A stretch of 36,114 bases of DNA, taken from contig JAABRX010000030.1 of assembly GCA_011390675.1 (NCBI GenBank), positions 1 to 36,114 of the forward strand. The letters run 5' to 3'. The notes under the pieces were generated by a model. That model had not been told where the DNA came from and did no database searches. It worked only from the letters and a program-made list of their open reading frames with translations. Below are positions 27,713 to 28,903 of this stretch, in pieces. Every line of letters starts with the position of its first letter. The stretch's first letter is position 1. The translations under genes and the position numbers were made by a program. The DNA is from Trueperaceae bacterium. GTDB lineage: Bacteria; Deinococcota; Deinococci; Deinococcales; Trueperaceae.

Positions 27713-28171
27713 TCAAGACGCGGTGGGATGCGCGTCGGCCGCGCGGCGCGCGACGCGCTCCATCCGCACCAGCAGCGTCGAGGACGGCGCCACCCTGCCG
27801 TTGAGGTAGGTCGAGAGGCGCGAGGCGGACGTGCCGATCGCTTCGGCGAAGGCGGCGCGGCCGAGCCCCGATGCATCCAAGTGCGCCCGCACCCGCCGCG
27901 CCACCTCGGCGCGTTCGGCGGCCTCGGCGTCGAGCCGCGCATGCGCGAGGACGCGCTCCATGAGCGGCGCCGCGCCGTAGGGACGGCTCGCGGCCAGCGC
28001 GTCCTCGAGCCGGCGCGCGACCGGTCCCCACGGGTCGGCGCGCACCGCCATCGCCAGGCGTCGCCAGTCGCTCAGACCGCCGCGCTCCAGGGCGGCCAAC
28101 ACGCCTTCCGTCGGCCAGGCTTCGACCGGTGCGTCCGGTCCCACGTCCAGATGGCGGAACCGCAGCGTCAT
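27713..28171 (-). CDS. XRE/Cro-type HTH protein, candidate antitoxin
   Basis: RVRAHLDASGLGRAAFAEAIGTSASRLSTYLNGRVAPSSTLLVRMERVA HTH; start ATG overlaps nucleotidyltransferase stop (ATGA). Confidence 0.8.
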   Translation of the reverse strand: MTLRFRHLDVGPDAPVEAWPTEGVLAALERGGLSDWRRLAMAVRADPWGPVARRLEDALAASRPYGAAPLMERVLAHARLDAEAAERAEVARRVRAHLDASGLGRAAFAEAIGTSASRLSTYLNGRVAPSSTLLVRMERVARRAADAHPTAS

Positions 28172-28845
28172 GGGGGCACCACCATCGACTCGGCGACGGC
28201 CGCGCACGTGGCCACCACCGCCTTCCAGTCGTGCCAGCGCGGGTCGAGGCGCTTGTAGCGGTGCAGCTCGCGGGTGGTGCGGGCATCCGCCGGTCGCGGC
28301 TCGGCCAGCTGCCGCGCCACCTGGCTCGCGACCCCGTCGCCGTAGCCTCGCTGGTCGGCGTAGAACGCGTCCATGTCGGCCAGCACGCGGGCCGCGTGGC
28401 CCAGGCCCGCTCGGTCGGCGAGAGCCGCGACGTCGAGGAAGTCGCGCGTCTGGTTGCGCCGCACGATGAGGAACGCCTTCACCCGCACGATCTCGTCGAA
28501 GGTCGGCACGCGGAGCCGGCGGCCCGTCGGCAGCTCGACCTCAGCGACCTCGAGCGGGCGCCGCCGGATCAACTGGCGCACGCCGGCCTCGATGTCGCCG
28601 AGCTCGCCCAGGATGATCTTGCCGGGCGTGACGCGGTTGGTCACCCACCCGTCGGTGCGTTCGATCGCTTCCAAGACCAGGTCGAAGCGCTCACGCAGGT
28701 CGGCGAGCACGTGGTCGTGGTCGAAGCTATCGCGGTGGTGCGCGTACCATGCTGCCGCGGAGCCGCCTACCAGGATGGCGTCGGGCACGACCTCCTGGAG
28801 ACGTGCAGCGGACTCCAGGACGTCGGCGAGCGTAGGGGCGTCCAT
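28168..28845 (-). CDS. Nucleotidyltransferase-like protein (AbiEii-like), candidate toxin
   Basis: AILVGGSAAAWYAHHRDSFDHDHVL (GS...DxD-type NTase signature), VKAFLIVRRNQTRDFLDVAAL; first gene of a two-gene operon with an HTH gene. Confidence 0.75.
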   Translation of the reverse strand: MDAPTLADVLESAARLQEVVPDAILVGGSAAAWYAHHRDSFDHDHVLADLRERFDLVLEAIERTDGWVTNRVTPGKIILGELGDIEAGVRQLIRRRPLEVAEVELPTGRRLRVPTFDEIVRVKAFLIVRRNQTRDFLDVAALADRAGLGHAARVLADMDAFYADQRGYGDGVASQVARQLAEPRPADARTTRELHRYKRLDPRWHDWKAVVATCAAVAESMVVPP

Positions 28846-28903
28846 GGCATCAAGATATCACATCCGATAACAACACGGTACCCGCCGAACCTGCGTCCGG
28901 GGC

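Follow-up and report, generated by a model that had tools for sequence, protein, structure and literature searches.

The genes of a probable toxin-first pair

Two overlapping genes on the minus strand of a Trueperaceae contig raise the question of what a nucleotidyltransferase (NTase) does when it is encoded ahead of a helix-turn-helix (HTH) protein. The window, i.e. the whole 36,114-nucleotide stretch of DNA that was analyzed, is contig C107 of a MAG of 3.49 Mb (79% complete, 5% contaminated), and its named close relatives belong to the Trueperaceae (Deinococcota). An earlier note on this DNA had described a 225-aa NTase overlapping a 152-aa partner by 4 nt (ATGA) and had proposed a toxin-antitoxin (TA) or small defence pair; all the coordinates were confirmed, and the proposal finds support in predicted fold, motifs and cross-phylum pairing. 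On the evidence given below, the locus is probably a two-gene, autoregulated, toxin-first TA module, in which an RNA-modifying NTase toxin would be paired with an antitoxin N-terminal domain (N-domain) and an XRE repressor domain. The genes are the following:

28168..28845, minus strand: NTase gene encoding 225 aa, a putative toxin that belongs to the AbiEii/MenT (DUF1814) superfamily (ORF, fold and motifs)
27713..28171, minus strand: partner gene, 152 aa from its ATG, putative antitoxin and autorepressor (ORF, XRE match and model)
28168..28171, minus strand: the NTase stop overlaps the partner start by 4 nt (ATGA), with translation probably coupled

The pair was searched for in genome contigs (genome_contigs search), and NTase and partner matched together at 38 of 40 loci, the two without a partner match being L047, where the contig ends inside the NTase, and L044, a proteobacterial locus with the partner upstream. 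The partner start falls between -4 and +9 nt from the NTase stop at 33/40 loci, while those outside this spacing are mostly cut or decayed copies. As both figures are this high, the pairing is not due to chance. Whether the two genes stay together in other genomes had been raised in the earlier note; they do so across phyla, and the NTase-first order is conserved with the pair across Actinomycetota (the main hosts), Trueperaceae and Myxococcota. No conserved third gene was found near the pair, the few clusters being mostly antisense frames or ordinary genes. No clean empty site could be shown either: relatives possess the LLM gene without the adjoining pair, but their other neighbours differ too.

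A further allele occurs on contig C102 of the same MAG (L108). Its interpretation as a paralogue produced by duplication was rejected, as the flanks align at 77.8-91% identity and represent the same locus; L108 is the window locus of a second, ~90% identical strain, and the MAG is a strain mixture. Comparison with this allele returned dN/dS values of 0.15 for the NTase and 0.16 for the partner, and both genes are under purifying selection.

The NTase has a MenT-like fold and a complete set of motifs

The motifs of the NTase, located by alignment and named according to the definition of DUF1814 motifs I-IV (PMC3985639), lie as follows:

28714..28767, minus strand: motifs I-II, residues 27-44, GGSAAAWYAHHRDSFDHD (G27, G28, R38, S40, D42, D44)
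28432..28479, minus strand: motifs III-IV, residues 123-138, K123...R130...R134-D135-x-x-D138 (K-x6-R and +DxxD), all invariant

The PF08843 signature (hG[G/S]...D-x-D, the motif II Arg, the motif III Lys and the motif IV +DxxD) is complete in the window NTase. The earlier note had left room for an NTase fold lacking catalytic residues; these are present, and R38, S40, D42, D44, K123, R130, R134, D135 and D138 were invariant in an alignment of 39 homologues. The MenT-type catalytic S/T-x-D, K and D correspond to the invariant S40, D42, K123 and D138, S40 standing where MenT has its phosphoacceptor residue (PMC11375011), and the spacing of 15 from K123 to D138 is the same as in MenT1 and MenT4. 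Mutations in DUF1814 motifs I-IV destroy AbiEii toxicity (PMC3985639), and the catalytic residues of MenT1 are T39, D41, K137 and D152 (PMC10435456). According to the alignment, most of the invariant NTase residues match positions whose mutation kills AbiEii or MenT1 toxicity (PMC3985639, PMC10435456).

The NTase structure was predicted with AF2 (pLDDT 95.5, pTM 0.91) and compared with the PDB. The best fold match was MenT1 in the MenAT1 complex (8an5, E 3.7e-5), and 8an5, 4ok0 (JHP933), 8an4 and 6y56 (MenT4) were all retrieved at E<=2.7e-4 with a probability of 1.00. When the PDB was searched by sequence, neither the NTase nor its profile retrieved anything relevant, and the family was reached by fold alone. 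The Pfam AbiEii model gave the window NTase a sub-threshold score of 18.4 bits (cutoff 22.5); it matched 32 of the 39 homologues at E<=1, and distant members from P. putida (31.8 bits) and Deferribacter (29.7 bits) exceeded the cutoff. Judged by modelled fold and motifs, the window NTase belongs to the AbiEii/MenT (DUF1814) type, which bears out the NTase-like signature reported earlier: motifs I-IV are present on a MenT-like fold.

The fold search also retrieved ANT(2'')-Ia and LnuA, which would suit a small-molecule or housekeeping enzyme, e.g. an antibiotic-modifying one, with its own XRE regulator and no toxic function; an NTase-first order with a separate regulator would likewise fit an inducible resistance gene. 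However, the best fold matches are MenT1 and JHP933, ANT(2'')-Ia standing further down than MenT1, JHP933 and MenT4, and the DUF1814-specific motifs III (K123...R130) and IV (RDxxD) are invariant. With the properties of the partner described below also taken into account, we regard this explanation as improbable.

The partner combines an XRE domain with a shared N-domain

The partner protein is divided into two regions:

27920..28171, minus strand: N-domain, residues 1-84, all-helical, with an 'RG..DW' pattern, putatively toxin-neutralising, the constant partner domain of the NTase clade
27749..27904, minus strand: XRE-type HTH at the C-terminus, residues 90-141 (HTH_31 and HTH_3 both score over their cutoffs)

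The C-terminal XRE HTH pointed out earlier was recovered by Pfam as HTH_31 at 31.1 bits against a cutoff of 27. Structure prediction of both proteins, which had been suggested as a check, gave a MenT-like NTase and a confident, all-helical partner model (pLDDT 94.2), the PDB fold search with the partner returning no matches outside the XRE domain. Pfam contains no family for the N-terminal ~84 aa. The partner showed no match to the AbiEi family (COG5340), its sole HTH being C-terminal and of XRE type, and outside the XRE domain no MenA1-like or COG5340-like match was found by sequence or fold.

In HEPN-MNT systems some NTases are antitoxins that inactivate their partner by nucleotidylation, and the roles might be reversed here in the same manner, with the partner as the toxin. 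We consider this very unlikely, since the partner shows no HEPN or other catalytic signature and ends in a DNA-binding domain, and its mycobacterial homologue survives beside an NTase lacking motifs I-II, where a toxin would be left uncontrolled.

The N-domain recurs in several architectures. In Proteobacteria (P. putida pKF715A, Acidiphilium plasmids, L044, L138 and L140) a protein of ~75-97 aa without an HTH is encoded upstream of the NTase, while Deferribacter pDF308 encodes a 112-aa protein downstream of the NTase that matches the N-domain alone. At L141 (1528-2701, G645:C27) the upstream partner begins with the XRE domain and ends with the N-domain; this locus is a partner-first relative with the domain order swapped with respect to the window partner. 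An IMG/VR contig (L049:4986-5879) carries a 297-aa ORF in which an NTase without motif I is fused to the N-domain. Direct hhalign comparison of the N-domain with three of the proteobacterial small proteins was not significant; these proteins are tied to the N-domain family because the iterative profile search runs through the intermediates L139 (9e-6) and L141 (6e-4), found in round 0, and in round 2 took in the proteobacterial small proteins, with values from 1e-8 to 3e-3.

The XRE domain may stand at either end or be absent, and the partner may precede or follow the NTase, so that the N-domain is the only constant element of the partner. For this reason the N-domain is most likely the actual antitoxin, which would neutralise the NTase, and the HTH is most likely an add-on. 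NTase distances correlated with those of the N-domain at r=0.91 and with those of the HTH at r=0.66; the closer tracking would be expected of an interface, although part of it comes from common ancestry and from the length of the domains. A constant partner domain that has no enzymatic signature and is found also without an HTH would not be explained if the partner were the mere regulator of a small-molecule enzyme, nor would the retention of the partner by some decayed copies that lack motifs I-II.

A palindrome in front of the NTase is a candidate operator

The region upstream of the NTase gene contains the following elements:

28846..28903: A+T-rich putative promoter/operator region of 58 bp, from the LLM-type gene to the NTase gene
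28855..28870: candidate operator palindrome, read on the minus strand as TTATCGGATGTGATAT and located 9 bp upstream of the NTase start; the consensus is TTATCn6GATAA

The 58-bp region had been described as short, AT-rich and unlike its surroundings, and indeed it is 41% A+T against 27% for the window, a content this high occurring in only 1.8% of the 58-mers of the window. The regions upstream of the NTase have in common a 16-bp palindrome, TTATCn6GATAA, which lies just before the NTase start at 34 of 40 loci (16 without a mismatch, 13 with one and 5 with two), whereas shuffled sequences would be expected to show it at <=2 mismatches in ~0.5 of 40 loci. The copy at 28855-28870 is the sole match with <=2 mismatches in the 36-kb window; since shuffles of the window give 0.54, the argument lies in the conservation and place of the palindrome and not in its mere presence. 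The perfect palindromes occur once per fetched locus, and the examined ones are all in front of the NTase. A pattern search for TATCN5TGATA in the 3.49-Mb genome retrieved the two alleles of the module and one other place. This third site (G000:C11:5836-5849, L142) lies ~28 bp before the ATG of a 191-aa ORF and is possibly a second target or a chance occurrence. The simplest reading of the sequence data is that the palindrome serves the partner XRE domain as a dedicated operator, which is very probable.

A scan for sigma-70 promoters found no consensus. At many loci a -10-like TATGATAA lies within the palindrome, and 4-15 bp separate the palindrome from the start; given this short distance, a leaderless transcript with the operator lying over the -10 element is plausible.

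Taking the TA module as the preferred reading, free NTase would add nucleotides to RNA, most likely to tRNA 3' ends, and this addition would stop growth. The N-terminal ~84-aa helical domain of the partner would neutralise the NTase, probably via binding, and the C-terminal XRE domain would bind TTATCn6GATAA before the NTase start and repress the operon. We infer toxicity, RNA target, neutralisation and repression from the family.

A probable variant of the AbiE/MenAT kind

AbiE (AbiEi/AbiEii, COG5340-COG2253) is a type IV TA and abortive infection system, whose toxin and antitoxin do not interact. The window pair resembles it in its DUF1814 NTase with motifs I-IV, in its bicistronic operon, and in the DNA-binding partner and the inverted repeat ahead of the operon. 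In AbiE, however, the regulator gene lies ahead of the NTase gene (PMC3985639), so that the toxin-first order and the XRE-type partner depart from that system, as had been noted earlier. Furthermore, the partner here joins a C-terminal XRE HTH to an unrelated N-domain, while that of AbiE is a COG5340 protein with an N-terminal wHTH, and there is one 16-bp palindrome in place of the two spaced inverted repeats of the operon promoter through which AbiE regulates itself. The AbiE order does appear among the proteobacterial relatives of the window NTase, which are partner-first. By partner family and gene order the module thus falls outside AbiE, and yet by analogy it probably works like it.

MenAT NTases transfer nucleotides to tRNA 3' CCA ends and arrest growth. 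Among MenAT1-4 of Mycobacterium tuberculosis, MenT1 and MenT4 are the closest solved structures and the catalytic residues are in place, but the partner matches neither the short helical MenA1 nor the COG5340-type MenA3/MenA4, and the NTase gene comes first. NTase toxins are known with wHTH partners (AbiEi, MenA3/4) or with MenA1-type partners. HigBA and MqsRA are toxin-first type II modules with an XRE antitoxin (the HTH of MqsA being C-terminal) and an operator beside the promoter, all features that the window pair would share; their toxin is an RNase where here the putative toxin is an NTase, and the antitoxin N-domain is unrelated. The module is probably a toxin-first variant of the AbiE/MenAT kind with an undescribed arrangement and is not AbiE itself.

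Distribution, mobility and a possible role in phage defence

The NTase was found in 6/101 genomes searched of its own group. As its occurrence there is so sparse and the Trueperaceae rows of the NTase tree are placed among actinobacterial ones, the module was likely transferred between bacterial phyla. Plasmids bear the pair or its proteobacterial form. A phage origin was rejected: 50,697 phage records contained no match, and the single viral contig, L049, carries the decayed fusion; this contig appears actinobacterial and is not clearly phage. Several other copies are decaying: the NTase is split over two frames at L045, L043 has an internal deletion, at L048 the NTase start is fused to the HTH end, L087 and L107 are fragments, and L136 has no motif region.

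The patchy, mobile distribution is also consistent with an AbiE-type phage defence, in which the pair would stay silent until the partner is lost upon phage infection, whereupon the NTase would halt translation. AbiEii relatives work as Abi systems (PMC3985639), and two more distant plasmid-borne relatives, L133 and L134, adjoin CRISPR genes (cas3 in Acidiphilium, cas6 in Deferribacter). In the main clade, however, defence genes are not conserved beside the pair, the window NTase is not recognised by PADLOC, and AbiEii models of the defence-model search match only a few homologues, weakly. Nothing found here speaks directly for a role in defence against phages as opposed to simple TA activity. 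Such a role, which we consider rather unlikely although clearly less so than the small-molecule enzyme, would complement the TA module and not replace it.

A disarmed copy of the pair in mycobacterial MmpL11

Finally, among 297 actinomycete genomes there were 19 in which the NTase profile (positions ~94-226) matched the C-terminus of an MmpL transporter. The E-values reached 1e-31 for this C-terminal half of the NTase and 2e-45 for a partner homologue, which is encoded by the overlapping next gene at all 19 loci. Motifs I-II are missing from every MmpL copy (19/19), while K123 is retained in 15/19. For the D2 domain of one MmpL examined, the only solved match was MmpL11 (4y0l). At these mycobacterial loci (L088-L106, e.g. 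G383:C1:5036650-5037033) the gene following MmpL11 encodes the partner homologue with a diverged HTH recognition helix; in M. tuberculosis, going by gene order, it would presumably be Rv0201c. Among the papers searched, none brings together MmpL11, C-terminal domain and nucleotidyltransferase. The sequence matches indicate that the C-terminal cytoplasmic domain of MmpL11, a lipid transporter of the RND type, is an exapted, disarmed NTase of the clade of the window.

A wider reading, which we find quite possible but a little short of likely, is that the N-domain represents an undescribed antitoxin family shuffled round one NTase clade, and that mycobacteria captured a disarmed pair as the C-terminal domain of MmpL11 and the next gene, where the old contact may regulate the transporter. 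To what had been noticed before we add the candidate operator, the assignment of the partner's N-terminal part to a shared, antitoxin-like domain, and the copy exapted in mycobacteria. The same enzyme family occurs in this locus with a different antitoxin, a reversed order and a clear candidate operator, which makes neutralisation and autoregulation directly testable, and a stand-alone antitoxin domain freely combined with HTH domains would show how TA modules get rebuilt. The link to MmpL11 would provide a function-orphan mycobacterial transporter domain with a testable origin and a partner.
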